Below are positions 14,234 to 28,733 of a DNA stretch of 64,000 nt, piece by piece (within the stretch, counting starts at the first letter, position 1; each line of letters starts with the position of its first letter). The notes beneath the pieces are model-generated. The model saw nothing but the letters and a program-made list of their open reading frames with translations, made no database searches and was not told the DNA's origin. Origin of the DNA: Nitrospirales bacterium (GTDB taxonomy: Bacteria; Nitrospirota; Nitrospiria; Nitrospirales; UBA8639); contig JALDRJ010000002.1 of the NCBI GenBank assembly GCA_031315865.1, positions 1,710,001-1,774,000 of the forward strand, given 5' to 3'. The translations under genes and the position numbers were made by a program.

Positions 14234-15250
14234 ATGGCCGTACCTGTCTCTCAGATGTTCACTGTCGCGAAGTATGTCATTACTCAAAAGCTCAAAAAAA
14301 CCAAGCGATATCCGCTCGTTCTCATGCTTGAGCCCCTCTTTCGCTGTAACCTTGAATGTGCGGGGTGCGGAAAAATTCAATATCCCGAGCATGTTCTTGA
14401 TCGTCGGCTGACTCCCGAGCAATGCTGGGCGGCGGCTGACGACTGTGGTGCGCCGATTGTCAGTATCCCTGGTGGAGAGCCGCTGATTCATCCGGAAATG
14501 CCGAAGATCATCCAAGGATTGGTCGCCAGAAAGAAGTATGTGTATCTGTGCACGAATGCGATCTTATTAGAGCGGAAGTTGGCCGATTATACCCCGTCTA
14601 AATATTTAACCTTTAGTATTCATATGGACGGGTTGAGGGATGAACATGATTTGGCCGTGTGTCGTGATGGGGTCTACGATGTGGCGGTCAAGGCCATCCG
14701 GGCGGCGTTGAAGCGCGGGTTTCGCGTCACGACCAATACCACATTGTTTGATGATGCGAATCCGTCTCGCGTCCGAAAATTTTTCGACGAAATGATGGGG
14801 CTGGGTGTCGAAGGCATGATGATCTCACCGGGCTATAGTTATGACAAGGCTCCTGACCAAAACAGTTTTCTTAAGCGCGATCGCACGCGTGCGCTCTTTA
14901 CTCAGCTGCTCAGTGAGCGAAAGAGGGCCTGGCAGTTCAATCAATCTCCGCTCTTCTTGGAATTTTTGATGGGGAAGCGAGACTATCAATGTACCCCCTG
15001 GGGGAATCCTACGTATAATGTTTTTGGCTGGCAGAAGCCGTGCTATTTAATTCAGGATGGCTACGTGTCTTCATTTCGTGAGCTCCTCGAAGAGACCGAC
15101 TGGGATCAGTACGGAACTGGGCGCAATGACAAGTGTCGCGATTGCATGGTGCATTGTGGGTATGAAGCCTCAGCGGTTGAAGATACCTTTAGCACGTGGT
15201 CCGGGTTTTTGGGGACAGTCCGGGCGACACTCTTTCCAAAGGCGACTTAG
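14234..15250 (+). CDS. hpnH: Adenosylhopane synthase HpnH (radical SAM)
   Basis: HpnH adds a 5'-deoxyadenosyl group to diploptene, giving adenosylhopane, the first step of side-chain extension. The 338-residue protein has the radical-SAM cluster motif CNLECAGCG (Cys38, Cys42, Cys45) and IPGGEPLIHPEMP (the GGE SAM-binding motif). The C-terminal part contains further Cys in CTPWG, KPCYLI and KCRDCMVHCGYE, as in this SPASM-like family. A ribosome site (AGAAGGAGAG) lies just before the ATG. With shc and hpnG upstream, the pathway from squalene to ribosylhopane is nearly complete in this window. Confidence 0.95.
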   Translation: MAVPVSQMFTVAKYVITQKLKKTKRYPLVLMLEPLFRCNLECAGCGKIQYPEHVLDRRLTPEQCWAAADDCGAPIVSIPGGEPLIHPEMPKIIQGLVARKKYVYLCTNAILLERKLADYTPSKYLTFSIHMDGLRDEHDLAVCRDGVYDVAVKAIRAALKRGFRVTTNTTLFDDANPSRVRKFFDEMMGLGVEGMMISPGYSYDKAPDQNSFLKRDRTRALFTQLLSERKRAWQFNQSPLFLEFLMGKRDYQCTPWGNPTYNVFGWQKPCYLIQDGYVSSFRELLEETDWDQYGTGRNDKCRDCMVHCGYEASAVEDTFSTWSGFLGTVRATLFPKAT

Positions 15251-15295
15251 AGCTCCCTCGATTATTTTGATTTCTGAGTGTGATGGCTTGCCGTG

Positions 15296-15661
15296 ATGAC
15301 GAATGACCAAGATCATCCCCCTTCTACAGGACAGAGTCTCGAAGGGCATGTCTTTACGTTGACGGATCCTCAAGAGCGATTACGTGTGATTGAGCTTGCA
15401 TTTGATTATCGCGGCGATGTCACGATCGAGTTAGGTTCAGGAGAGATGATAGAAGGGTATCTCTTCGATAGAGATGGGGCGTCTTCCAGTCCGACGATTA
15501 AAATGTTTCTTAAGGGACAGTCTGAAGCGCGAACGCTCGACATTCAACAGATCATTTCCCTGACCTTTTCAGGGGAAGACACGGCGTTCGGGAAATCTTG
15601 GGATGATTGGGTCAATAAGAAGGAAAAGGTTTCTCAAAAGGTTCATGCCTCTGGCGAGTGA
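15296..15661 (+). CDS. Conserved small protein of unknown function downstream of hpnH
   Basis: This soluble protein of about 121 residues has no signal peptide, membrane segment or recognised motif. Its middle part (VTIELGSGEMIEGYLFDRDG followed by TIKMFLKGQSEARTLDIQQI) looks like a small beta-barrel of the Sm/SH3 kind, but that is only a visual impression. The end is charged (WDDWVNKKEKVSQKV). It follows hpnH by 45 bp in the same direction and may be co-transcribed, which would tie it to hopanoid metabolism. GTG at 15293 directly before the ATG is an alternative start. Confidence 0.7.
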   Translation: MTNDQDHPPSTGQSLEGHVFTLTDPQERLRVIELAFDYRGDVTIELGSGEMIEGYLFDRDGASSSPTIKMFLKGQSEARTLDIQQIISLTFSGEDTAFGKSWDDWVNKKEKVSQKVHASGE

Positions 15662-16414: not shown

Positions 16415-16900
16415 ATGAAGCAACGCTACAGTGTTAAGGCCGTATTCTTGATCGGGCTATCCGTTATAAGTTTAACCATCACGGCATGTGGTGGAGGAGG
16501 TTCTGAGGGTCCGCCAAAACCGCCGCCACCGGCTCCACCAGAGTATGCGGATAAGCATATGCCTGCTGATTACTGGAATAATCCAGCGATTATCGAGCAA
16601 GGGCAAGCCATCTACACAGGGCAACAGAATATTGACGTGAATTGCGCAAGTTGCCATGGGAAAAATGGGAAACCTGTAAAGGCTGGGGCAAGAGATTTTC
16701 GAAATACCGAACACATGAAGCTCTTTTCTGACTCACAGTGGTTTTGGCGTGTGTCGGAGGGTGTGAAGGGGACAAAGATGAAAGCTTGGAAGAGCAAGCT
16801 ATCGGAAGATGAAATTTGGAAAGTCATTGCCTTTGAAGCTACGTTTGGGTTGAAGGGGCAAAAATATGATGTAGAGAAGAAGGCATGGGTGCCAAACTGA
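16415..16900 (+). CDS. Monohaem c-type cytochrome lipoprotein
   Basis: This protein of about 161 residues has a lipoprotein signal (SVISLTITAC, lipid Cys25), then a Gly/Pro-rich linker (GGGGSEGPPKPPPPAPP), then one cytochrome c domain with the haem motif CASCH (residues 77-81). Met residues in GTKMKAWKSKL can supply the sixth haem ligand, and the following LSEDEIWKVIAF segment is typical of class I cytochromes c. The start at 16415 is chosen because AGGGGG lies 8 nt upstream and gives a compact signal peptide. The frame is open further upstream but without signal features. It opens a long run of respiratory genes and probably passes electrons on the periplasmic side. Confidence 0.88.
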   Translation: MKQRYSVKAVFLIGLSVISLTITACGGGGSEGPPKPPPPAPPEYADKHMPADYWNNPAIIEQGQAIYTGQQNIDVNCASCHGKNGKPVKAGARDFRNTEHMKLFSDSQWFWRVSEGVKGTKMKAWKSKLSEDEIWKVIAFEATFGLKGQKYDVEKKAWVPN

Positions 16901-16970
16901 GAATCCGAGAGTGTCTCGTTCAATTCGGTGAGGTATGTGAAGCCATGAATATGAAGGAGGGCGAAAACCC

Positions 16971-18683
16971 TTGAAAACACTGAGTCGAAGCTTATTGATG
17001 CTAACTGGCCTTGTGGCCGTGGGGGCAGCTTCTGCGTATGGGCAAATCCCAGACGCGCCAGTTGTTGATTTTCCGTATGCGGGGAATCGCACCGGTGTTT
17101 GGGTTGTCGCGCAGTTGCATATCTTGTTCGCTGCCTTCATTCTCGGCGCACCGATTTTTGCGGTTGTTTCTGAGTGGCTAGGGTATAAGAATAATGACCC
17201 CAAGTATGATCGACTCGCAAAGGAGGTCACCAAGGTCACGGTCATCCTGTATAGCATGACCGCGTTGACAGGTGGTCTCTTTATCTTTGTGTTGTTGGGG
17301 ACTTACCCGGATTTTACGACCTGGTTGATCAAGAACTTTTTCCTGGTCTTTGCCATTATCTATCCCCTGCTCTTCATCGCAGAAACGATCATTCTCTATA
17401 CTTATTTCTATTCATGGGATTCGATGAAAGGAAGTAAGAAGGCTCGCCATATCGCGTTAGGCGTGTTGTTGAACCTTGTTGGGACGATTACGCTGTTCGT
17501 GATCGATGGGCCTACGGCATTTATGAATACCCCGGCCAAGGCGGCTGAGGGAATGTCGCTCGTGGAGTTTGTGCAGACCGCGGGCCTGTGGGATAAGGTG
17601 GCCAACTATAGTTGGATGCCGCTGAACCTTCACCGTCTGGTCGGAAATGTGACGTTTGGAGGGTTCATTGCTGGATTAATCGCAGCTTATATGTACATGC
17701 GTTCCCGGTCTGATGAGGAGCGAGCTTACTACGATTGGATGGGATTTATCGGAAATCTTATCGGGGTAGGAGCGCTGCTATTGCTCCCGTTCATGGGCTA
17801 TTTGTTGGCGTATGAGCTTTGTGACTACGATGCTTCAATTTGCCCGTATATGATGGCGGATCAGTTGTCGATGTTCTTTGAGATGCAGGGGGCCATGATT
17901 GGCCTGATTTTTCTCGCCAGTAATTATTATATCTGGCTTAGTATGAAGCGGATTCAGGGTGTCGAGCAGGTAAGGATATCAGGACTGGTGATGATCGCGG
18001 TTATCATTATGCCAGCCGTGATGGGACTGGCCTGGAAGATGTTTCCGCCTCCGGAATGGCAGTCATTGATATTCCTGGCTGCCCTTGTTGTTCTGCCTCC
18101 TGTTCTTAGTAAGCTTCCCGGGTTGAGGTTTACCGTGTCAGCCTTCACGATGATCAAGGTTGGGTTCTTGATGATCGTCGTCGCTGATGCGATTTGGATG
18201 ACCCCGCATGGTTTTGTGGCGACTCAGGGATTGGCCACGCATGACCTAGAACTTCCAGAGTGGGCGCAAGAACTGGCTTTGATGCCAGCGAAAAATGCCG
18301 CTGCGTTTACCTTGGTGTTCCTGACCGTCGTGAATTATATTCTGTACAATCGAGCGATTCGAATGGGGAGCATCTCTTGGGGGAAAATCGATTTTGCCTC
18401 GCAATTTGTTCTCATTTTCCTGGCCTTCAGTGCGATATGGACTATGGGCTTGATGGGGACGGTTCGCTCGTTGACCCGCAAGTATTTCCATGTTTACAAC
18501 CTGGTTCCGGACTTCACTTCTGAGGCCTTTACCCCCACGTTGGCGTATTCCGCCTGGTGGATCACCGGTTGTACGATTGTCTTCTTTGTTGTGGTCAGTT
18601 TTGCCATTATGGTCACACTTCGAATTACGAAAGATAAAGCTCCTGAAGCACAGGGAGTTCCACTTCCTGAAGGGGCGAAATAA
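16971..18683 (+). CDS. Cytochrome-bd-like (CydA-like) multi-haem b membrane protein 1
   Basis: The 570-residue protein has about 13-14 membrane helices and resembles subunit I of cytochrome bd oxidase. His50 in WVVAQLHILFAAF matches the first CydA haem ligand region, and His221 in MPLNLHRLVGN matches the second. The segment FFLVFAIIYPLLFIAETIIL resembles the CydA helix containing the FxxES motif. A clear quinol-binding Q-loop was not found. Unlike CydA it has a cleavable-looking signal peptide (ASA-YGQIP near residue 22). A TTG start is used, with AAGGAGGG about 10 nt upstream. A nine-codon reading frame (from 16945) ends by overlapping this TTG in TTGA, suggesting coupled translation. It is paralogous to the protein encoded at 22572-24437. 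It probably carries haem b in the respiratory complex encoded here, and oxygen reduction is possible but unproven. Confidence 0.82.
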   Translation: MKTLSRSLLMLTGLVAVGAASAYGQIPDAPVVDFPYAGNRTGVWVVAQLHILFAAFILGAPIFAVVSEWLGYKNNDPKYDRLAKEVTKVTVILYSMTALTGGLFIFVLLGTYPDFTTWLIKNFFLVFAIIYPLLFIAETIILYTYFYSWDSMKGSKKARHIALGVLLNLVGTITLFVIDGPTAFMNTPAKAAEGMSLVEFVQTAGLWDKVANYSWMPLNLHRLVGNVTFGGFIAGLIAAYMYMRSRSDEERAYYDWMGFIGNLIGVGALLLLPFMGYLLAYELCDYDASICPYMMADQLSMFFEMQGAMIGLIFLASNYYIWLSMKRIQGVEQVRISGLVMIAVIIMPAVMGLAWKMFPPPEWQSLIFLAALVVLPPVLSKLPGLRFTVSAFTMIKVGFLMIVVADAIWMTPHGFVATQGLATHDLELPEWAQELALMPAKNAAAFTLVFLTVVNYILYNRAIRMGSISWGKIDFASQFVLIFLAFSAIWTMGLMGTVRSLTRKYFHVYNLVPDFTSEAFTPTLAYSAWWITGCTIVFFVVVSFAIMVTLRITKDKAPEAQGVPLPEGAK

Positions 18684-18710
18684 TCCTCAGGGAGTAAAAG
18701 GGGGAAGCGA

Positions 18711-19517
18711 ATGGCTCAGCAAAGTTTGATGGGTAACATCATGAAAAAGGGCATCATTGGCGTGATCGTCGGGGGCATTCTCGTCGTCATTGCCAAGCTG
18801 ACCCATTTTCCGTTTGTGTTTCAAGTGATGTTCTTTATGTATGCGATGTTGGGTGCATTGGTCTTTATTCTTCTTGATGCGCCTTCGATGAAACGGTTGG
18901 AGGGCGGAAAAGCCGCGGTCGGGCTTGTTGTGTTTTATGTCATCTTATCTTTGGTGTACATCGGAGGAGCCAGCGGGCTACCTCAGTACGATCCAGAAGA
19001 TGAAAAGGGAAAGATTGATAAAATCCTCAAAGCAAGGAAAGCTCGAACGGAACAAGGAAAGGCGGAGGAACTCCTTGCTCGGACTAAGGCTCTCGATGAA
19101 CGAGCGATAGCTATCGACAAAAAGTTAAATACCCTCGGAGCAGGGAAGATAGAAGTTGTTGAAGAGGTAGTGTCTGTGACCTCTGCTGCCGGTGGAGATA
19201 TTATTGCACTGGGAAAAGAGCAATGGGAGCTGCAGGAATGCTATAACTGCCACAAACTCTTTGGAGAGGGTGGGAAAAAGCGGGGCCCTGTTCTGGATAA
19301 CATCGGAAGTCTCATGACGCCAGCGCAGCTTAAAGAGAAAATTATCGACCCAAAGAGTTGGATGGCTGAAGGCTTTGATAAACAATACAAAAAAGGCAAG
19401 ATGCCGGACAAGTATAAAGATCTCATGTTTGATAATGAAATCGACGCGCTTGTGGCCTTTCTGGCCTCACTGAAGGATACGTCTGTCGAAACGCCGAAAC
19501 CCATTAAGATGAACTAA
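18711..19517 (+). CDS. Membrane-bound monohaem cytochrome c with coiled-coil linker
   Basis: The 268-residue protein begins with three hydrophobic segments (about residues 14-29, 37-56 and 68-87). A charged helical linker follows (about 98-140, ARKARTEQGKAEELLARTK), then a cytochrome c domain with haem motif CYNCH (177-181). The candidate Met ligand is in KKGKMPDKYKDL. The closing EIDALVAFLASL helix is typical of class I cytochromes c. It lies 27 bp after the first CydA-like gene and 24 bp before the Rieske gene, with GGGGAAG as ribosome site, so it is a likely subunit of the same complex, with its haem on the periplasmic side. Confidence 0.85.
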   Translation: MAQQSLMGNIMKKGIIGVIVGGILVVIAKLTHFPFVFQVMFFMYAMLGALVFILLDAPSMKRLEGGKAAVGLVVFYVILSLVYIGGASGLPQYDPEDEKGKIDKILKARKARTEQGKAEELLARTKALDERAIAIDKKLNTLGAGKIEVVEEVVSVTSAAGGDIIALGKEQWELQECYNCHKLFGEGGKKRGPVLDNIGSLMTPAQLKEKIIDPKSWMAEGFDKQYKKGKMPDKYKDLMFDNEIDALVAFLASLKDTSVETPKPIKMN

Positions 19518-19541
19518 TTTATTTAACGACTCTGTTGTCTT

Positions 19542-20486
19542 ATGCAACCTAAATTATCCGCAAAAGCAAGCTGTAGTGATGGGGAGGTTGGAAGGGTCTC
19601 AAAGGTCATTGTGGACCCCATTTCTCATGAGGTGAGCCATATTGTTGTGCAGGAAACCTCAGGTCAGCGACAGGAGCGTAAGGTTCCTATTGGGGAAGTC
19701 CAGGAAATCGTGAATGAGGAGGAAATCACTCTTCGGTGTTCTAGGGGTGAGTTTGCGCAATTTCCAGTCCTGGATCGGGATCACTATGTGACGACCCATG
19801 AGGTCGAGATTGCGCATCTTGAAGACAACCTGCATGTTGAGCCTGGAGAGGTATTAGTCCCTTTTCCATGCTTGGAACGCGATGTTCCGCGCCGAACGTT
19901 TTTCACGAATATGACTCATGCGATCGGAGCCCTCATCGCTCTGCCTTTGGCGTTTCCTGTCTTGAAATACCTTATGAAGCCGATGTACAAGCCATTCGAT
20001 AATGAATGGTTTAACGTCGGTAATATTAAAAAAATCACGAAAGAAAATATCGGGTATCAGTTCAAGTTTGATCGCGGGTTTAAAGAAGCTTTCATGCCAG
20101 AGCAACAAATTGAAAAAAATATCTGGGTCGTCAAGGCCACACCTGAGGTCAAGAAAGCCGTCTACGACGGGAAAGACCGAAAGTATTACGATAACAATGG
20201 TAACGTCATCTGGGTGAATAAAGCCAACTCTCCCTACATCGGCTATTCGGGCAAATGTCCTCATCTTGGCTGCGGGTATAAATGGAGAAAGACAAAGAAT
20301 TTTCCCGATGGTGTATTTTTGTGTCCTTGTCATTTGAGCATCTATGATGAAGCGGGTAAGGTGCTTGATGGCCCTGCGCCGAGGGCCCTAGATGTACTTC
20401 CGCTTGATGTGAATGCTGGTGGAGAAATAAAAATCATTGACGTGGAATACAAGGCTGGCGTGAAGAATCAAATTCGACTTTTATAA
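19542..20486 (+). CDS. Rieske iron-sulfur protein with N-terminal PRC-barrel-like domain
   Basis: The 314-residue protein has three parts. Residues 1-100 look like a PRC-barrel (GEVGRVSKVIVDPISHEVSH followed by IVVQ, then KVPIGEVQEI), a small beta domain known from RimM and reaction-centre subunit H. Residues 116-145 hold PRRTFF followed by one hydrophobic helix (ALIALPLAFPVL), which looks like an internal Tat-type signal anchor. Residues 230-275 hold the Rieske [2Fe-2S] site, CPHLGC (Cys239, His241, Cys244) and CPCH (Cys261, Cys263, His264). The cluster passes electrons from quinol at cytochrome b to cytochrome c. The cytochrome b gene follows 16 bp downstream. The N-terminal domain would sit in the cytoplasm, which is unusual for a Rieske protein. 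Confidence 0.92.
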   Translation: MQPKLSAKASCSDGEVGRVSKVIVDPISHEVSHIVVQETSGQRQERKVPIGEVQEIVNEEEITLRCSRGEFAQFPVLDRDHYVTTHEVEIAHLEDNLHVEPGEVLVPFPCLERDVPRRTFFTNMTHAIGALIALPLAFPVLKYLMKPMYKPFDNEWFNVGNIKKITKENIGYQFKFDRGFKEAFMPEQQIEKNIWVVKATPEVKKAVYDGKDRKYYDNNGNVIWVNKANSPYIGYSGKCPHLGCGYKWRKTKNFPDGVFLCPCHLSIYDEAGKVLDGPAPRALDVLPLDVNAGGEIKIIDVEYKAGVKNQIRLL

Positions 20487-20502
20487 TTGCCTCATTTTTA
20501 CC

Positions 20503-21615
20503 ATGAATGAACAACCGCGTACCGTAAATGAGCCGAATGCGTTTGAAAAAGTTGTCGACTTCGTAGATGAGCGAGTCGGGCTAAAAACGATACAAGCGAA
20601 GATGCTCAATGAGCCAGTTCCTGGTGGCTCGCGCTGGGCATACGCGTTCGGTTCGGTTCTCCTCTTCATTTTCATCCTCCAAGTGGTTACTGGGATCCTG
20701 CTGATGTTCTACTACGTCCCCAGTACCGATCATGCCTACGCCAGTACTCAATATATTATCCATGAAGTCGAGTATGGCTGGTTTTTGTTGAGCTACCATT
20801 TCTGGGGATCCTCAGCCATGGTCGTCATGGTTTTTGCGCATATGTCTCAGGTATTTCTCTGGGGGGCGTATAAAAAGCCACGAGAATTGATATGGCTAGT
20901 TGGATTGGCGTTGTTCGGGATTGTCATGGCATTCGGGTTTACTGGATATTTGCTTCCTTGGGATCAGCGAGCCTATTGGGCAACAGTCGTTGGAGTTGAG
21001 ATCATGGACAAGACGCCGCTTGTCGGTGATTTTATGGCTCGTTTCTTAAAGGGAGGGCCAACCCCTGGGCAGATGACTCTCAGCCGATTCTTCGTGATTC
21101 ACGTGATGGTTCTGCCAGCAGGATTAATGGGACTGGCAGGCTTGCATCTATTCCTTTTCCGTAAGGCTGGCCCTGCCGGACCATTCCGAGGTACTCCAGA
21201 AGAGCTGAAAGCCAAAACTGATTACTTTTTCCCTCGTCAAATTTGGAAAGATATCGTGGCGATGGCCACAGTGTTCTTGATCGTCTGCAGCCTGGCATTT
21301 ATCGAACCAGTTGTGTTGTTAGAGAAAGCAACCCCAGACCCAGGGGATTATCATCCTGAGCCAGAGTGGTACTTCTTATTCTTATTCCAGCTCTTGCGTT
21401 TGAAAATGTTTGGCGGGGAATTTGGGCAATTTCTTGGGGCCATTGCCATTCCTGGTGCATTTATGGCTCTCTTGGCAGCTTTGCCATTTCTTGATACCAA
21501 TCCTGAGCGTAATATTTTTAAGAGACCGGTTGCTCTGGTAAGTTGGATTGTCATTATGGTCGGTATTCTCATTTTTACCGTTTCGGCCATTTTAAATCGA
21601 GAATTTCTTCACTAA
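20503..21615 (+). CDS. Cytochrome b of a bc/b6f-type quinol-cytochrome c reductase
   Basis: The 370-residue membrane protein binds two b haems through His99 and His113 (in LLSYHFWGSS and VFAHMSQVF) and His200 and His215 (in FFVIHVMV and LAGLHLFLF). The spacing in the second pair, 14 residues between the histidines, is that of cytochrome b6 rather than mitochondrial cytochrome b. The C-terminal half is fused as in cytochrome b and carries HPEPEWYF (284-291), the PEWY motif of the quinol-oxidising Qo site. GFTGYLLPWDQRAYWA is the usual conserved loop. It lies directly after the Rieske gene, as in pet operons, and is the core of the quinol-oxidising part of this cluster. Confidence 0.95.
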   Translation: MNEQPRTVNEPNAFEKVVDFVDERVGLKTIQAKMLNEPVPGGSRWAYAFGSVLLFIFILQVVTGILLMFYYVPSTDHAYASTQYIIHEVEYGWFLLSYHFWGSSAMVVMVFAHMSQVFLWGAYKKPRELIWLVGLALFGIVMAFGFTGYLLPWDQRAYWATVVGVEIMDKTPLVGDFMARFLKGGPTPGQMTLSRFFVIHVMVLPAGLMGLAGLHLFLFRKAGPAGPFRGTPEELKAKTDYFFPRQIWKDIVAMATVFLIVCSLAFIEPVVLLEKATPDPGDYHPEPEWYFLFLFQLLRLKMFGGEFGQFLGAIAIPGAFMALLAALPFLDTNPERNIFKRPVALVSWIVIMVGILIFTVSAILNREFLH

Positions 21616-21622
21616 AACTAAT

Positions 21623-22501
21623 ATGTCAAATACGAAACTCGGTCTTCTCGTTTTCTGGCCGACCTTTTGGACGGGCTTTCCGATCAAAATGGTCGTTTGT
21701 CTATTACTGTTGGCCGGAGGGCTTCATCCCTGGAAAGGTCTAGGGCTTGAGTTTTTACTCGCCCTGTCCATCCCTATCGATATTTGGGCTTTAGGCGTTT
21801 GCGCGCGAACGGTGTTTTTGGAACGTTTGGATGTCGATCCTCAACCTGGCCTGGGACTAAGACTGTGGTGGAAGTGGGCGTTGTTTAGTGCTATCTACCT
21901 GCCAATAACGACCATCATCGTAAAAGCTGTGACATCCGGCTCAAAGGCGATGAGTCACAGCATTGTTGAAACCATTAAGGAATATATTTGGGCAGTGCCA
22001 GTCGCGGAGCAAATATCGATTGATTTGGTCTTATGGGGGACAGTCGCCTCTGTAGTCCTTATTCTCTTAGTCATGGGATGGTTGTGGGGGCTTGGAGCTT
22101 TTGCGCAACGTGAAGTCTCAGCGGGAGTAAAGAAAGACGGAACGTTCCAGGATATTGTGCGTTTCTGGGATCTACTACGGGTTCCACGGGATCAGGCATT
22201 ACTCCTTACTGCCTTTACAGGAACAGGGGTTGTTCTTGTCTTTCTTTTTTGGGGACTACTGCCGGAAACCACGCCTCATCCTCATGATGAATATGAGTAC
22301 ACGAATGTGGTAAAGGTAGAGCCGCCAGTTAAGCCGCTTGAGGTTCTTAAGTTTACAGAAAAAGTATTGAAAAAAGCAGAGCTGGCGATTCAGGGATTAG
22401 AAAACGAAAAAGATGTAGAAGACGACGCAAGCAAGGAAAATGGATCGCAGCAAGAAAAGGTCAAGGCTGAATCCCAGAAAGCAACGTCTCCTCCAAAGTA
22501 A
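21623..22501 (+). CDS. Membrane protein of unknown function in the respiratory cluster
   Basis: The 292-residue protein has about four to six hydrophobic helices (for example MVVCLLLLAGGL, FLLALSIPIDIWALGV, SVVLILLVMGWLWGLGAF and GTGVVLVFLFWGLLP) and a charged soluble tail of about 80 residues (EKVLKKAELAIQGLENEKD and following). No haem c motif or recognised domain is visible. It starts 7 bp after the cytochrome b gene and lies between it and the second CydA-like gene, so it is probably a structural or linking subunit of the complex. I do not recognise its family. Confidence 0.75.
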   Translation: MSNTKLGLLVFWPTFWTGFPIKMVVCLLLLAGGLHPWKGLGLEFLLALSIPIDIWALGVCARTVFLERLDVDPQPGLGLRLWWKWALFSAIYLPITTIIVKAVTSGSKAMSHSIVETIKEYIWAVPVAEQISIDLVLWGTVASVVLILLVMGWLWGLGAFAQREVSAGVKKDGTFQDIVRFWDLLRVPRDQALLLTAFTGTGVVLVFLFWGLLPETTPHPHDEYEYTNVVKVEPPVKPLEVLKFTEKVLKKAELAIQGLENEKDVEDDASKENGSQQEKVKAESQKATSPPK

Positions 22502-22571
22502 AGATGGGATGTAACATTATCTGAGTCCCCGTGACGGTCAAAACAGGCCAGCGGGTCAGGAGAAGGGTCAC

Positions 22572-24437
22572 ATGAACAGGAAACCTCTTCAAATCCTCAG
22601 GAATTCTAGTTTTCCGATTTCGGGGAGCGCTCTTCTTAAATGGGGTGGTCTGTTCATTCTTGTATTGTTCCCGGTTTTGGCATGGGCTCAAGATGCGGCT
22701 ACCCAGGCCATGTCGGTGGAGTATCGTGATATTCCAGGAATTGGGAGCCGGAATATTATTTGGATCGTAGCTCAACAGCATCTTTTGCTGGCAGGCTTCG
22801 TTCTGGGAGTTCCTATTTTTGCCTGGGTTTGTGAAATAGTCGGTTGGAAGACCAAAGAGCCTCGCTATGACAAGCTGGCTAAGGAATTTACCAAGCTTCT
22901 CACTTCAGCCTATGCGACGACGGCTCTGTTTGGAGGGATTCTACTTTTCCTTCTTATTGGTCTGTACCCGAAATTAATGGCTTACCTGACCGACATCTTC
23001 TTTCCATCGTTTATCGCCTACTGTCTCCTTTTTATCGCAGAAACTGCCACGCTTTATATGTATTGGTATGGATGGGATGCGATGCAGGGTAACAAAAAGG
23101 CTTTGCATATCTTCCTTGGCTTCCTGCTCAATTTATTCGCGATTGGCATTATGATCGTTCCTAATGCGTGGGCGACTTTCCAGGCCAGCCCTGTTGTGGT
23201 GGCAGACGGAACCGCGATTGAAAAAGCCTGGGCCGCCATGCAGAACCCGACGTGGTGGCCGGTGAATATTCACAGGCTGATCGCAAACGTCGTACTGGGT
23301 GGGTTCATCTGCGGCGCGTACGCCGGAGTGCGTTATCTGCTCGCCGTCACCCGTGAAGAGAAAGAGCATTATGACTGGATGGGATATGTTGGAAATTTTA
23401 TCGGTGTCTTTGGGATGTTGCCCTTGCCCTTCGCCGGATATTGGTTGATGCGAGAAATCTATCAGTATAATCAGCAGATGGGGATCACCCTGATGGGTGG
23501 ATTTTTAGCGTGGTTGTTTATCCTTCAGGCGATGCTGATTGGCGTGTTATTCCTTGGAGCCAATTATTACTTCTGGCTAGGTATTGCTCACAGGATACCT
23601 GGGTCTGAGGGTCAGTATAAAAAACCCATTATGGCGATGCTGATCGTCTTGCTCGTTTGTCTGGGGGTGTGGATGACACCACATTCTCTCGTTGCCAGTT
23701 TGGAAGAAGCCAGAAAAATGGGAGGAACCCATCACCCACTTCTCGGGGTGTTTGGGGTGATGTCCGCCAAGATGACCGTATCGAATTTGATGATTCTCGT
23801 GACATTTATGAGTTTTATTATGTATTGGCGGGCGGGAAAGGTTGAAACAGCTGGTTGGGCGAAAGCCGCAAAAGCGCTCATGGGAGCTTTGCTGGTGATC
23901 GCTGGAATCGCCGTGATCGTACTTGGAGTCTGGGGATATTTCGTGCCGGCCATCATCAGGATTAACTATTTTTCAGTGGCGCAGGTGTTGATCGTGCTCT
24001 TTATCATGATAACCTTCACACCATTAACGGCGCTTTTGATGAAAAGCGCTAAAACCACGACCGAGATGGTGTGGGGAAAAATGCCTATTCGTGCTGGATA
24101 TAGTCTGGTGTTGAATGCCGTGATGGTCATCCTGTTGATGTCACTCATGGGCTATGCGCGATCATCCTCTCGCGTGCATTGGCATATTTATGGTGTGATG
24201 CGAGATACGTCAGAATACGCCTACTCACCGGCGCTCGGCTATGCCGCTGCATTTATGTCATTGAATACCTTTGTGTTTTGTTTGTTGGCGGCATTCATAT
24301 TCTGGGTCGCAACTTTAGGAGATAAAGCGAAAAAACAGCCACCAGAAGGAGGGGAGGCTGAGAAGGTTCCCCCAATGGGAAGCGTGGCTCCAGCGATGGC
24401 TGGAGGAGCTCCTAGGCAGGGCGAAAAGCTAAGCTGA
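22572..24437 (+). CDS. Cytochrome-bd-like (CydA-like) multi-haem b membrane protein 2
   Basis: The 621-residue protein is a paralogue of the one encoded at 16971-18683. It shares the order WIVAQQHLLL (His70), a second His in WWPVNIHRLIANV (His234), HYDWMGYVGNFIGVFGMLP and VWMTPHSLVAS. It also has a signal peptide (VLFPVLAWA-QDA, near residue 39) and about 14 membrane helices, then a Gly/Pro-rich cytoplasmic or periplasmic tail (PPEGGEAEKVPPMG). Tail and signal peptide are not features of ordinary CydA. The two copies probably carry haem b in one complex. Which one, if either, reduces oxygen cannot be told from the sequence. It starts 70 bp after the preceding gene, with AGGAGAAGG upstream. 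Confidence 0.82.
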   Translation: MNRKPLQILRNSSFPISGSALLKWGGLFILVLFPVLAWAQDAATQAMSVEYRDIPGIGSRNIIWIVAQQHLLLAGFVLGVPIFAWVCEIVGWKTKEPRYDKLAKEFTKLLTSAYATTALFGGILLFLLIGLYPKLMAYLTDIFFPSFIAYCLLFIAETATLYMYWYGWDAMQGNKKALHIFLGFLLNLFAIGIMIVPNAWATFQASPVVVADGTAIEKAWAAMQNPTWWPVNIHRLIANVVLGGFICGAYAGVRYLLAVTREEKEHYDWMGYVGNFIGVFGMLPLPFAGYWLMREIYQYNQQMGITLMGGFLAWLFILQAMLIGVLFLGANYYFWLGIAHRIPGSEGQYKKPIMAMLIVLLVCLGVWMTPHSLVASLEEARKMGGTHHPLLGVFGVMSAKMTVSNLMILVTFMSFIMYWRAGKVETAGWAKAAKALMGALLVIAGIAVIVLGVWGYFVPAIIRINYFSVAQVLIVLFIMITFTPLTALLMKSAKTTTEMVWGKMPIRAGYSLVLNAVMVILLMSLMGYARSSSRVHWHIYGVMRDTSEYAYSPALGYAAAFMSLNTFVFCLLAAFIFWVATLGDKAKKQPPEGGEAEKVPPMGSVAPAMAGGAPRQGEKLS

Positions 24438-24488
24438 GTTCTGGGCTATCCTTGGGGATTTGCTGATAACCAGGAAATAAGAGGCATC

Positions 24489-25145
24489 ATGAGTGAAGTT
24501 GCATTATTGCAATTGATAGGGCTGATCGTTGTCGGACTTGGCGTAGCTATTCTTCTGTTCATCAAATCCAAGTTCCTTAGGGTTATCGGGTTTGTCATAA
24601 TTGTTCTAGGATCATTCAGCCTGATTGCCTTGGGTGTTCCACAAATGGCATCTCTCCCTCCAGCTATCGAGACTTTTGATATTGCCAGCGTCAAGACGCC
24701 AGACGATCTGGCGTCTATCGGCCAGAAAATATTTTTTAGTAAAGGTCAATGTGCTTTGTGTCATTCCATTGGTCCGAGTGAATCAGCGAGGTGTCCTGAT
24801 CTTGCTGGTATCGGGGCAAAACTAACTCCTGAGTTTATCTATGAGAGTTTAACGGATCCACAAGCTTACATCTATTTGGACTTCCGCCACGATCAGCTTC
24901 CCGAGGAGTATCCGGCGCGTATGCCGTATATCAACAAAAATCCCATTGCGCTGAGTAAACCCGAGATCTATTCGGTCATCGCATTTTTGCAAAAGATGAG
25001 CGGTGAACCTATCAGTATTCAGATAGAAGATGTGATGGTCGTTGAGGTAGCCGAAGAACGAATACCAGTCCCCATTCATGCCGCTCCAAATGTGAGTGAA
25101 GAAGAAGTGGTCGTCGTTGGGACCACCAGTATTGAAAGTGATTAA
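24489..25145 (+). CDS. Membrane-anchored monohaem cytochrome c
   Basis: The 218-residue protein has two N-terminal membrane segments (about residues 7-25 and 31-50), then a cytochrome c domain with haem motif CALCH (88-92). Met145 in YPARMPYINK probably serves as sixth ligand, and SKPEIYSVIAFLQKM is the closing helix. The end is acidic (VSEEEVVVVG). It sits in the middle of the cluster, 50 bp after the second CydA-like gene and with the next cytochrome c gene 18 bp downstream. Confidence 0.87.
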   Translation: MSEVALLQLIGLIVVGLGVAILLFIKSKFLRVIGFVIIVLGSFSLIALGVPQMASLPPAIETFDIASVKTPDDLASIGQKIFFSKGQCALCHSIGPSESARCPDLAGIGAKLTPEFIYESLTDPQAYIYLDFRHDQLPEEYPARMPYINKNPIALSKPEIYSVIAFLQKMSGEPISIQIEDVMVVEVAEERIPVPIHAAPNVSEEEVVVVGTTSIESD

Positions 25146-25163
25146 ACGCTAGGAGTGAGTGTT

Positions 25164-25886
25164 ATGAAAGGTCCTCTCGTATCAGCAGCGATTTTGCTTA
25201 GTGGCGTCTTTGTCTTTTTAAAGTTTATTCTCCCTTTGTTTACGGCGCCTTTGCCGGCAAGCCTCATATATCTCTACTTGGCAATTACGCTGAGTGGAAT
25301 CATGATTTTTGACACCATGAGTGAGAGAGGACTTGAGACATTCATGGGACCCATAAATCGGTTTTTGTCGGGAGAAGTTCAGGGCACGGCCAAAACGGCC
25401 AGGCTCTTGGTCTTTATTGTCTTCCCTCTACTGGTAGGCTGGCAAACGTATACTAAACTAGCTCCGAGTGATTTACCTCCAGCAGAGAACCGAACGATCC
25501 ACCCGGCGCCTCCTGGTGAATTCGTTGGATTAGCGAATCCTTACCCCACGAATAATTCTAATATTCAGCAGGGGAAGGGAATCTATGCAGCGAACTGCTC
25601 ACCCTGTCATGGTCCAAACTTTGATGGAAAGGGCGTGGCTGCGCCAGGATTCAATCCTCCTCCTGCCAATTTTGCGGATCCTGGAACCATTGCTCAGCTT
25701 CAGGAATCGTACTTATTTTGGCGTATAAAAAAAGGTGGGGTCGGCTTACCGATTGAAGGGATGCCATGGAAGTCCGCCATGCCTCGCTGGGAGGAGGAAT
25801 TAACGGATGAGCAGATTTGGAAAGTGATTATCGGTGAATACGATGGGGCCGGACAATCACCAAGAACCTGGGAAGAAGAAGAATAG
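25164..25886 (+). CDS. Membrane-anchored monohaem cytochrome c
   Basis: The 240-residue protein has three membrane segments (about residues 5-27, 32-50 and 81-97), then a cytochrome c domain with haem motif CSPCH (145-149). GLPIEGMPWKSAMPRW supplies candidate Met ligands, and LTDEQIWKVIIGEYDG forms the closing helix. The ATG at 25164 is chosen because AGGAG lies 8 nt upstream. An in-frame GTG three codons earlier overlaps that ribosome site. It belongs to the same gene run and is likely another electron carrier of the complex, facing the periplasm. Confidence 0.87.
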   Translation: MKGPLVSAAILLSGVFVFLKFILPLFTAPLPASLIYLYLAITLSGIMIFDTMSERGLETFMGPINRFLSGEVQGTAKTARLLVFIVFPLLVGWQTYTKLAPSDLPPAENRTIHPAPPGEFVGLANPYPTNNSNIQQGKGIYAANCSPCHGPNFDGKGVAAPGFNPPPANFADPGTIAQLQESYLFWRIKKGGVGLPIEGMPWKSAMPRWEEELTDEQIWKVIIGEYDGAGQSPRTWEEEE

Positions 25887-25912
25887 AGAGTGATTTTATT
25901 CTTTGTAACCAG

Positions 25913-26779
25913 ATGGTTTATGGATATGAGGTCATGAGGGGTATGATCGGAAAAAAAGGAATTGGTCTGGCGTCTGCCATGATCTTTGGAGTGATGGGCC
26001 TATGGGCTATCCCGGTGTTTGCAAGTGACCCTCCACCTGATGATGCGCCGGCAAGCGTTTCAGTTCGAGTATACTTGACGGAAGGAACCGTGCCAGTGAG
26101 CGATCCAAACGCTGCTGAGTGGGATTCTGTCGCGTCATCGGAGTTTAACTTGGCCCCCCAAGTGCATTGGCCTGACCGTATTCAGGATGCCACGGTTAAG
26201 TCCGTTAAGGTACGCGGTCTTCATGACGAACAAACCATCGCCATCCTGGTTGAATACCAAGACCCCACTCAAGATCCAGCAGACGCCGCTGCATTGGAGT
26301 TTATGGTTGGTGATCAAATGGCCCATTTTGCTCATGGTCAAGAAATGCTTCAAGTCGAGGGTGGCCCTGTCAACATCTGGTATTGGAAGAATGAAGAGGG
26401 AAAAGCCACAGACATGAGTGCGAAAGGATTCAAGACACTACGACTGCAAGAGCAACAGGATGTCTCGGCGACAGGGATCTGGCAAGACGGTGTCTGGAAG
26501 GTCGTGTTTTCAAGACCGCTTCAAACCGGAGATGAAAACGACATCCAGATAGATCCAGGAAAATGGACGAGTGTGGCCTTTGCGTTCTGGGATGGAAAAA
26601 TCATTGAGGGTGCCGTGAAAGAAAAGGGAAGTCAAAAGGCTGTTTCCTCGTGGTGGTATATTCGCGCAGAGCCAGCGCCAGACAATTCTATCTTTGGCTA
26701 TGTCGCCTTAGGTCTCCTAATAGCGGCGGCATTTGAATATTTTCTCGTAAGAAAGCTTCGAAAAGGACAGCCGGCATGA
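25913..26779 (+). CDS. Haem b protein related to ethylbenzene dehydrogenase gamma subunit / NxrC
   Basis: The 288-residue protein has a signal peptide (LASAMIFGVMGLWAIPVFA), a periplasmic beta-rich domain, and a C-terminal membrane anchor (IFGYVALGLLIAAAFEYFLV). The domain carries the pattern of the EB_dh haem-binding family: an N-terminal EWDSVASSEFNLAPQ stretch, IAILVEYQDPT, MAHFAHG, and VVFSRPLQTGDEN followed by WTSVAFAFWDG. Members bind one haem b with Met and Lys ligands and carry electrons for DMSO-reductase-type enzymes, including nitrite oxidoreductase. No alpha or beta subunit gene is here, so it may work with the cytochromes around it. Starts at 25934 or 25943 are also possible. Its stop overlaps the next start in ATGA. 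Confidence 0.75.
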   Translation: MVYGYEVMRGMIGKKGIGLASAMIFGVMGLWAIPVFASDPPPDDAPASVSVRVYLTEGTVPVSDPNAAEWDSVASSEFNLAPQVHWPDRIQDATVKSVKVRGLHDEQTIAILVEYQDPTQDPADAAALEFMVGDQMAHFAHGQEMLQVEGGPVNIWYWKNEEGKATDMSAKGFKTLRLQEQQDVSATGIWQDGVWKVVFSRPLQTGDENDIQIDPGKWTSVAFAFWDGKIIEGAVKEKGSQKAVSSWWYIRAEPAPDNSIFGYVALGLLIAAAFEYFLVRKLRKGQPA

Positions 26780-27816
26780 GGGGCGTACCGACAATTCGGC
26801 AAGCGTGGGTTTGGTCAGTTTTGCTCGTTATCGGCATGTTTTTCTTCGTGAATGGGTGCGCGATATTTGAAGATGAGCACACAGCGAAGGGAAAAAAGTT
26901 ATACCGCCATTATTGTATGCATTGTCATGGGGAGTCCGGGAGACAAGGTGAAGGGTTTAATTGGGACAGTCTTTCGAATATGGAATTTCCACCCCCGAAA
27001 GATTTGTCCGATTCATCGATGGGAAGTTCAATATCCGATAAGGACATTTTTAACGCCATTTCAAGAGATATGAAAGATACATCGGATCCAAAAGTAATCG
27101 AGGATGTTGAGTACTTCGGCGTCGCGACCATGCCGACTTTCAAATATACACTATCCGAGATGGAAATTTGGTCTTTAGTTCGTTACGTTCGATCTCTTCA
27201 TGGGGGTGATTTTACGTTTGATGTCGAAGGCAGGCGTCAACTATTGGAGTCTGAGCTAGAGACGACTAAGCAGGAAATGGAGGTCGCAACACAAGCACTA
27301 GAAGCTGCGGAAGCCAAACGGGACGCGGAACTGGAGGCTGCTGAAGCGGCGGCTGAGGCTGCAGGTGATGAAGATTTTGAAGCGGAAGAAATAGAACTTC
27401 CCGAGGAAGAAGTAGCTGCCAAAGCATCCATGAGGTATACGGAAGCCAAGAATGCCTTTGAACGTTTCGCAAAACGCCCGAAGGTGACGGTGGCTCGTCC
27501 AGATTTGAAGACCACAGATGAAGAGCGTGCGGTTCTTGAGAAAGAAGGTAAGCATCTGTATATCAATAAATACGGATGCAATAGTTGCCATCGTATCCAA
27601 GGACAAGGGGGGTTGGTTGGTCCGGAACTCGATCGTGCAGGATTTCGATTAAATGACACATGGATTTACGAATGGATTCTGTACCCGCAAGGTATTAAAA
27701 AGCACACCAGAATGCCAAACCTTGGGTTGAACGACCATGATGCTCGAGCAGTGACCGCCTACTTGGAAACGCTTCGCGCTCCGAAGCCTGATGAACCTGT
27801 TCTTTCCCAAGAGTAG
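26776..27816 (+). CDS. Dihaem cytochrome c lipoprotein with long coiled-coil spacer
   Basis: The 346-residue protein has a lipoprotein signal (MFFFVNGC, Cys28) and two cytochrome c domains, with haem motifs CMHCH (47-51) and CNSCH (268-272). Met residues in VATMPTFKYT and HTRMPNLGL are candidate ligands. Between the domains lies a strongly charged, Ala/Glu-rich helix of about 80 residues (152-235, such as EAAEAKRDAELEAAEAAAEA) that should form a coiled coil holding the haem domains apart. The start overlaps the preceding stop (ATGA), so translation is coupled. It closes the respiratory gene run, and its stop is only 5 bp from the stop of the convergent prenyltransferase gene. Confidence 0.88.
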   Translation: MRGVPTIRQAWVWSVLLVIGMFFFVNGCAIFEDEHTAKGKKLYRHYCMHCHGESGRQGEGFNWDSLSNMEFPPPKDLSDSSMGSSISDKDIFNAISRDMKDTSDPKVIEDVEYFGVATMPTFKYTLSEMEIWSLVRYVRSLHGGDFTFDVEGRRQLLESELETTKQEMEVATQALEAAEAKRDAELEAAEAAAEAAGDEDFEAEEIELPEEEVAAKASMRYTEAKNAFERFAKRPKVTVARPDLKTTDEERAVLEKEGKHLYINKYGCNSCHRIQGQGGLVGPELDRAGFRLNDTWIYEWILYPQGIKKHTRMPNLGLNDHDARAVTAYLETLRAPKPDEPVLSQE

Positions 27817-27821
27817 CTGAC

Positions 27822-28733
27822 TTAAATTTTTCCTGCCCAGAGTAGCACTAACATCGCTATACCCACCCAAACATGTTGCTTAAACATCGTGAAGTAAGTG
27901 TGTCGTTGTTGTGGTTGAGTGAGTCGCCAGACCTGCCAGCTTAAAAACAGGCTGATTCCTAGAAGCCCAACGAAAAAAAAATTGTTTAACGAAGCAAGCC
28001 ATCCCGCCATTCCGATAAAGATCAGCGTGAGGCTTGATGCGCCAGCCACACCGGCCCACACATATTCTCCGAAGAAAATGGCGGAAGACTTCACGCCAAT
28101 TTTCACATCGTCTTCGCGATCCTGAAGAGCATAAATCGTATCATACGCTACGGCCCAGAAGACTGTTCCTAAAAACAACAGCCAGGTCTCTAATTCCAAG
28201 CGATTTTGAACGGCTGCCCAAGCCATCACGGTTCCCCACCCAAAGGCAATACCGAGAATGAGTTGCGGAATATGAATATACCGTTTTGCAAAGGGATATA
28301 ACGCGGCCAGGGCCAATGCAATAGGGCTTAGAGCGATACTCAGTGGGTTGAGTGATAAAACAAGCCCGAACGATAGGACGACGAATATTAAAGCGAGACT
28401 CAGTGCCTGAAGCGGGGAAAGTGCTCCTCGCGCGAGCGGGCGATGTTGTGTACGCTGAACTTGCTTGTCGATTGACCGGTCGGCAAGATCATTAAAAATG
28501 ACCCCAGCGCTTCGCATGAGAAAGGCCCCAATCGTAAAAATAAGAACCAGGGCCGGGTCAAGCTGGTTCTTCTCTGAAGCCAATACGAGTGCCCATAAAG
28601 AAGGAAGCAGGAGCAGCCATGTTCCGCTTTGACTCGGGAGTCGGATAAGCTGCAGTGCCGTTATCCAAAAGTGTTCACGTTGTTGAGGAACGTTGGGTGA
28701 GGATTCAGTAGTTGAAGAGGGGGGAGTCGTCAT
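27822..28733 (-). CDS. UbiA-family prenyltransferase (UbiA or MqnP type)
   Basis: The 303-residue membrane protein has eight or nine helices and both aspartate-rich motifs of the UbiA family: NDLADRSIDKQVQRTQHRPL and YDTIYALQDREDD. These bind the Mg-diphosphate of the polyprenyl donor. The family attaches polyprenyl chains to the aromatic head group of quinones at the membrane. UbiA of ubiquinone synthesis and MqnP of the futalosine menaquinone route are closely alike, and no other quinone gene nearby decides between them, so I leave the symbol open. It faces the respiratory cluster tail to tail, with almost no space for a terminator. Confidence 0.9.
   Translation of the reverse strand: MTTPPSSTTESSPNVPQQREHFWITALQLIRLPSQSGTWLLLLPSLWALVLASEKNQLDPALVLIFTIGAFLMRSAGVIFNDLADRSIDKQVQRTQHRPLARGALSPLQALSLALIFVVLSFGLVLSLNPLSIALSPIALALAALYPFAKRYIHIPQLILGIAFGWGTVMAWAAVQNRLELETWLLFLGTVFWAVAYDTIYALQDREDDVKIGVKSSAIFFGEYVWAGVAGASSLTLIFIGMAGWLASLNNFFFVGLLGISLFLSWQVWRLTQPQQRHTYFTMFKQHVWVGIAMLVLLWAGKI

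Follow-up and report, generated by a model that had tools for sequence, protein, structure and literature searches.

The cluster comprises 11 co-directional genes on the + strand, at positions 16415-27816 of the window (i.e., the whole stretch of 64,000 nucleotides that was analyzed). The host genome is 3.78 Mb in size and belongs to the order Nitrospirales. The genes, checked against the list of open reading frames (ORFs), are separated by gaps of 7-70 bases with a single ATGA overlap at 26776-26779, and are as follows:

16415..16900, + strand: cyc1, a monohaem cytochrome c with the lipobox ITAC; probably a lipoprotein
16971..18683, + strand: N1, CydA-like; orthologue of the OR-N1 / bd-like_1 type
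18711..19517, + strand: cycM, a monohaem cytochrome c with N-terminal transmembrane (TM) helices as the membrane anchor; travels with N1
19542..20486, + strand: Rieske 2Fe-2S protein with one TM helix and an N-terminal extension of ~100 aa
20503..21615, + strand: cytochrome b of the b6 type, a single chain of the b6 and subunit-IV parts; PEWY present
21623..22501, + strand: family-less membrane protein with an N-terminal helical domain (four long helices) and a C-terminal one-TM part
22572..24437, + strand: N2, CydA-like, of the OR-N2 / bd-like_2 type; orthologue in Ca. N. defluvii (locus L075)
24489..25145, + strand: cycA, a monohaem cytochrome c with a membrane anchor; related loci have it joined to the C-terminus of N2 as one protein
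25155..25886, + strand: cycB, a membrane-anchored monohaem cytochrome c; belongs to the N2 module
25913..26779, + strand: EB_dh / NxrC-like haem b protein with a signal peptide and a C-terminal TM helix; fits alt_nxrC_1 of N. moscoviensis
26776..27816, + strand: cycD, a dihaem cytochrome c with the lipobox VNGC; ATGA overlap with the EB_dh gene

The gene content and identities given in the original prediction were verified throughout, including all of the ORFs, the Pfam families, the six CxxCH motifs, the ATGA overlap, and the haem and Rieske ligands. The five c-type proteins matched Cytochrom_C or CBB3 in Pfam, and the six CxxCH motifs are distributed singly in cyc1, cycM, cycA, and cycB and doubly in cycD. 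Lipoboxes were found in cyc1 and cycD and TM anchors in cycM, cycA, cycB, and the EB_dh protein; every electron carrier of the cluster thus appears to be tethered to the membrane. The EB_dh protein matched the EB_dh family at 1e-22 (81 bits against a cut-off of 33.3) and is NxrC-like by this measure, while its score for TIGR03477 (100 bits) fell under the curated cut-off of 169.85, so that the protein is related to this family but is not a full member. A radical SAM/DUF3463 gene (14234-15250) and a small family-less gene (15293-15661) are located upstream of the cluster, as in nearly all of the Nitrospirales loci. Immediately downstream, a gene for a UbiA-family prenyltransferase lies on the opposite strand (27822-28733, -) and could serve quinone or haem synthesis.

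The Rieske protein (Pfam Rieske, 9e-8) and cytochrome b (Cytochrome_B, 7e-50; Cytochrom_B_C, 6e-9) displayed features expected for bc1/b6f (complex III), namely the intact Rieske motifs CxHxGC and CxCHxS, two His pairs in cytochrome b (99/113 and 200/215, with the b6-type spacing), and PEWY at position 287. The ligands and motifs of cytochrome b and the Rieske protein were kept in 66/66 and 67/67 orthologues, respectively. Residues 1-103 of the Rieske protein matched no Pfam family. No dedicated cytochrome c1 or f subunit was assignable in the cluster; cycM follows N1 also in locus L048, in which complex III does not adjoin.

The gene directly 3' of the cytochrome b gene encodes the family-less membrane protein, for which no match was found in the searches of PDB and Pfam. 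The structure model of this protein (pLDDT 79.6) had no Foldseek match with E <= 0.001. The best VIA rows were ABC transporters at Z 6-7, a level typical of long helices, and the model thus shows no clear known fold. The protein is confined to Nitrospirales apart from one weak match elsewhere (E 5e-4). In two loci (L109 and L112), stand-alone proteins of 91-94 aa are encoded directly after cytochrome b, and a profile of the family-less protein matched these short proteins (E 5e-11 and 6e-13), the match covering the one-helix part at its C-terminus. Because of this match, the family-less protein is best read as a small one-helix neighbor of complex III that has been extended by a gained helical domain. 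It may serve as a subunit of complex III or as a bridge to N2.

N1 and N2 matched Cyt_bd_oxida_I (PF01654) at 2.5e-17 and 3e-19 (63 and 69 bits against a cut-off of 26.2). The N2 model (pLDDT 83) bears the CydA fold, with Z 31-34 over ~350 residues against ten bd structures (among them Z 33.6 over 355 residues), and we regard the two proteins as members of the cytochrome bd superfamily. Both N1 and N2 keep the equivalents of the CydA haem ligands H19, H186, and M393, as well as that of E107; the equivalence to M393 is based on the profile alignment of N1 and the invariance of M397. The H19/H186/M393 equivalents were kept in nearly all of the other OR-N-type proteins sampled and the E107 equivalent in most of them, albeit the latter was lost in some of the fused forms described below (E157 is replaced by Ser or Thr in 5/11 fused proteins). 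The ligand E445 is lacking in N1 and replaced in N2 (S531), and the OR-N-type proteins sampled have Ser, rarely Asn or Ala, at this position. Seven residues past the E445 position lies an invariant His (538 in N2), where the model is of low confidence (residues 536-539). The proposed copper site H387/H388 is common in the N2 types and absent from N1. Thus, the cluster shares the CydA fold and the H19/H186/M393 equivalents with canonical, quinol-oxidizing CydAB but differs from it in three respects: E445 is replaced, the Q-loop with the quinol-binding residues has no counterpart in N1 or N2 (membrane helices being present there instead), and no CydB is encoded among the eleven genes.

The N2 model also resembled ActC of alternative complex III (Z 19.4) and PsrC of the NrfD family (Z 15.4), well above unrelated rows, and quinone chemistry at N2 is therefore conceivable. 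Such resemblance is in line with the idea, raised for Nitrospina (PMC3578206), that the CydA-like proteins, rather than being oxidases, act as quinone-reactive modules passing electrons from cytochrome c to quinone, as in alternative complex III, for reverse electron flow. We regard this reading as improbable, as N2 matches CydA far better (Z 31-34) and lacks the quinol-binding Q-loop, relatives carry N2 as a fusion with cytochrome c, and no match to COX1/heme-copper oxidase was found in the host genome. Other than the genes in the cluster, the genome carries one canonical CydA away from the cluster, two further EB_dh genes, and a second cluster (L047; C2:325000-344500) that holds another two CydA-like proteins together with c-type cytochromes and an EB_dh protein of 646 aa bearing cytochrome c domains; this second cluster fits the bd-like_3/bd-like_4/alt_nxrC_2 region.

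As the same order was found in the loci including those of N. moscoviensis (L073) and Ca. N. defluvii (L075, the NIDE0901 region), the cluster, judged from its genes, is the region already known as CIII_1 / bd-like_1 / bd-like_2 / alt_nxrC_1 in N. moscoviensis (PMC6606698). Both loci comprise the same eleven genes as the window with no difference in gene content found, and their N2 and N1 are ~81% and ~73% identical to those of the window. Mundinger et al. (2019) reported high transcription and co-expression of this region, in which CIII_1 and bd-like_1 are accompanied by bd-like_2 as the putative complex IV, by several c-type cytochromes, and by alt_nxrC_1, and they proposed a III-IV supercomplex (PMC6606698). 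The CydA-like pair was named OR-N1 and OR-N2 and proposed as a CydAA' terminal oxidase (PMC12342949, PMC10839748). The window proteins share the CydA core fold, the haem ligands, the lack of a quinol site, and nearby cytochromes c with the OR-N family; both these names and the CIII_1/bd-like names are applied here through the orthology with the named loci and the gene content, not through locus tags. What is new in this study is the comparative evidence, i.e., the separable modules, the N2-cycA fusion, the antiporter genes, N2 in the genomes lacking N1, and the extended family-less protein.

The eleven genes were identical in content, order, and strand in all of the 52 fully covered loci with this type of N2, and the 20 partly covered loci were all contiguous sub-runs of the same order (note that a few genomes entered these counts twice, e.g., N. 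defluvii as L019/L075). Such consistency indicates that the arrangement is not due to chance, and the test set by the original prediction, conserved order across genomes, held within Nitrospirales. In an even sample of the phylum, N1, N2, and the family-less protein were present in 37/37 genomes of the order. Three loci, labelled Nitrospinota (L066), Cyclobacteriaceae (L111), and Gammaproteobacteria (L118), carry Nitrospirota-type clusters and are probably mis-binned.

Outside the order, the cluster splits into two sets (L032-L046, L048, and L124-L136): cyc1-N1-cycM, which occurs alongside complex III or, as in L048, apart from it, and N2-cycA-cycB-EB_dh. The N2 set, N2-cycA-cycB and usually EB_dh, was found alone in other Nitrospirota families and also in Rokubacteria, Methylomirabilota, Chloroflexota, Poribacteria, and one Myxococcota contig. 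Three loci (L109, L112, and L181) are intermediate, with the order cyc1-N1-cycM-Rieske-cytochrome b-short protein-N2. N2 without N1 was found in eight genomes of the family f5 (90-99% complete), the families f33-f36, and a further eleven genomes outside Nitrospirota (one of them unplaced); the best match of the N1 search in these genomes was the N2 locus itself. Conversely, three f28 genomes, which are MAGs of Nitrospirales (73-96% complete, with some stretches masked), possess N1 and the complex III genes and, next after these, cycA and cycD, whereas N2, cycB, and EB_dh are absent in between; this gives a weak indication that N2 is missing from these genomes altogether. Rieske/cytochrome b genes of another type were found near N2-type genes in L029, L114, L119, L129, and L186 in differing arrangements, and the pairing of complex III with an N2-type oxidase is thus regarded as recurrent. 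Within the complex III/OR-N cluster of L112, a gene at L112:9506-9838 encodes a protein resembling the ATP synthase c subunit (PF00137, E 6e-14); such a gene is present also within the clusters of L191, L192, and L120.

These data bear on how the eleven products are assembled. The original prediction held that they form one large complex coupling quinol oxidation to another redox step. The present results support a connection of quinol-cytochrome c chemistry with another redox step. A single large, stable complex of all the products, comparable to the III-IV supercomplex of Mundinger et al., would agree with the strictly kept order and tight spacing, the repeated proximity of complex III to N2-type oxidases in other arrangements, and the co-expression in N. 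moscoviensis (PMC6606698); nevertheless, we consider it rather unlikely, as the modules stand apart outside the order, the eight f5 genomes have N2 in the absence of N1, and the clusters of the f28 genomes within the order hold N1 and complex III but lack N2. The breaks between the modules fall between the family-less protein and N2, and are consistent with at least two separate complexes that share one operon solely for regulation, complex III/OR-N1 and OR-N2 meeting via diffusing or tethered cytochromes. To this arrangement we give somewhat less than an even chance, since the order strictly kept throughout Nitrospirales exceeds what co-regulation needs. A stable physical supercomplex of the cluster products is possible. 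From the module borders, the chances are about even that OR-N1 is tied more closely to complex III than to OR-N2.

In L029, L030, L110, and L112-L119, N2 and a cycA-like domain are encoded as one ORF, with CxxCH near residue 670-708. A quick tree placed 10/11 of the fused N2 in one clade (SH-aLRT 98). The N2 of Nitrospira sp. RCA (L113 = G221, 99% complete) falls in this fused clade, while its N1 sits among the ordinary Nitrospira N1; from these positions, we conclude that the N2-cycA of the standard cluster is replaced by the fused form in this genome. Likewise, N2 is swapped in L120 with N1 being native. The alternative that OR-N1 and OR-N2 form an obligate CydAA'-type heterodimeric oxidase, with the rest of the cluster as electron carriers (PMC12342949, PMC10839748), is favored by the presence of both genes in the 37 genomes of the order mentioned above and by their location in one cluster. 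This alternative appears doubtful to us, because N2 occurs in the genomes lacking N1, N2 was exchanged next to a native N1 in two loci, and every tested haem ligand is kept in both proteins, so that neither of the two looks like a degenerate partner.

Most of the fused loci carry two Mrp/NuoL-type antiporter genes. Two Proton_antipo_M (Mrp/NuoL-like) genes follow the fused gene in L112, L113, L115, L116, L118, L191, and L192 (L191 and L112 are of the same genome) and precede it in L029, L114, L184, and L186; L119 has two Mrp1-type matches, and no antiporter gene was found in the stretch seen of the fused loci L110 and L189. In Nitrospira sp. RCA, the fused N2 and antiporter region spans L113:9845-15648, and the second antiporter has an intact frame with 77% identity to its L112 counterpart. 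L184 (G303, 72% complete) is a second Nitrospirales genome with the fused N2 and antiporter genes inside this cluster. TO_1/TO_2 of Ca. Manganitrophaceae share with the window cluster a bd-like protein, c-type cytochromes, and a periplasmic haem b protein (PMC9040806). TO_2 has two MrpD-like subunits, whereas the window cluster has no Mrp subunit and its N2 is of the plain, unfused form. Although the MrpD-like subunits of TO_2 were reported as restricted to Ca. Manganitrophaceae (PMC9040806), Mrp genes with the fused N2-cycA were found here in several families, including those of the Nitrospirales genomes G221 and G303 as well as f5 and f30. As a tentative proposal, to which we attach less than even odds, OR-N2 and its cytochrome c may make up an oxidase core that can be exchanged and that occurs either in a plain form, as in the window, or in a fused form accompanied by two complex-I-type ion-pump subunits.

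Altogether, the cluster likely encodes complex III plus OR-N oxygen reductases supplied by cytochrome c, and would be the main high-potential respiratory machinery in a nitrite-oxidizing Nitrospirales bacterium. The first module would comprise complex III (the Rieske protein, the b6-type cytochrome b, and the small TM subunit) together with OR-N1 and its two c-type cytochromes, and the second OR-N2 with cycA, cycB, the NxrC-like haem b protein, and the dihaem cycD. Electrons from nitrite oxidized in the periplasm would enter the membrane-tethered c-type and b-type haem proteins and pass through cycA to OR-N2, the putative cytochrome c oxidase, at which O2 would be reduced. Following the published models, some of the electrons would be driven backwards via complex III into the methyl-plastoquinone pool, while electrons from low-potential donors would run forward through complex III and supply the same oxidase. 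Reverse flow via complex III with methyl-plastoquinones has been described (PMC12324825), and complex III presumably works with OR-N2 in both directions as published. The N2-cycA fusion directly supports cytochrome c as a partner of N2 and is the clearest hint that it is the electron donor, and we have good confidence that OR-N2 and cycA act as an O2 reductase of the bd superfamily fed by cytochrome c. The explanation is also favored by the conserved eleven-gene order, the retained bd haem ligands and the missing Q-loop, the CydA fold of N2, the genome having no heme-copper oxidase match and its one canonical CydA elsewhere, the recurrent proximity of N2-type and Rieske/cytochrome b genes, and the co-expression in N. 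moscoviensis. Three points count against this explanation, namely the replacement of E445 in N2, the resemblance of the N2 model to ActC and PsrC (Z 15-19), and that we found in the literature no demonstration of O2 reduction by any OR-N enzyme. Nor did we find in the literature a report of a purified Nitrospira terminal oxidase.

Nitrospira carries much of the world's nitrite oxidation, and its nitrite-oxidizing members are believed to use the cluster for delivering electrons from nitrite to oxygen and for returning electrons to the quinone pool. With the fusion, the borders of the modules, and the N2 swap that occurs in nature, concrete constructs and partners are available for testing the electron donor of OR-N2, the need for OR-N1, and ion pumping. 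If the two-form core is true, a bd-type O2 reductase can couple to ion pumping through borrowed Mrp/NuoL modules, and orthologous Nitrospira clusters would naturally differ in pump coupling.
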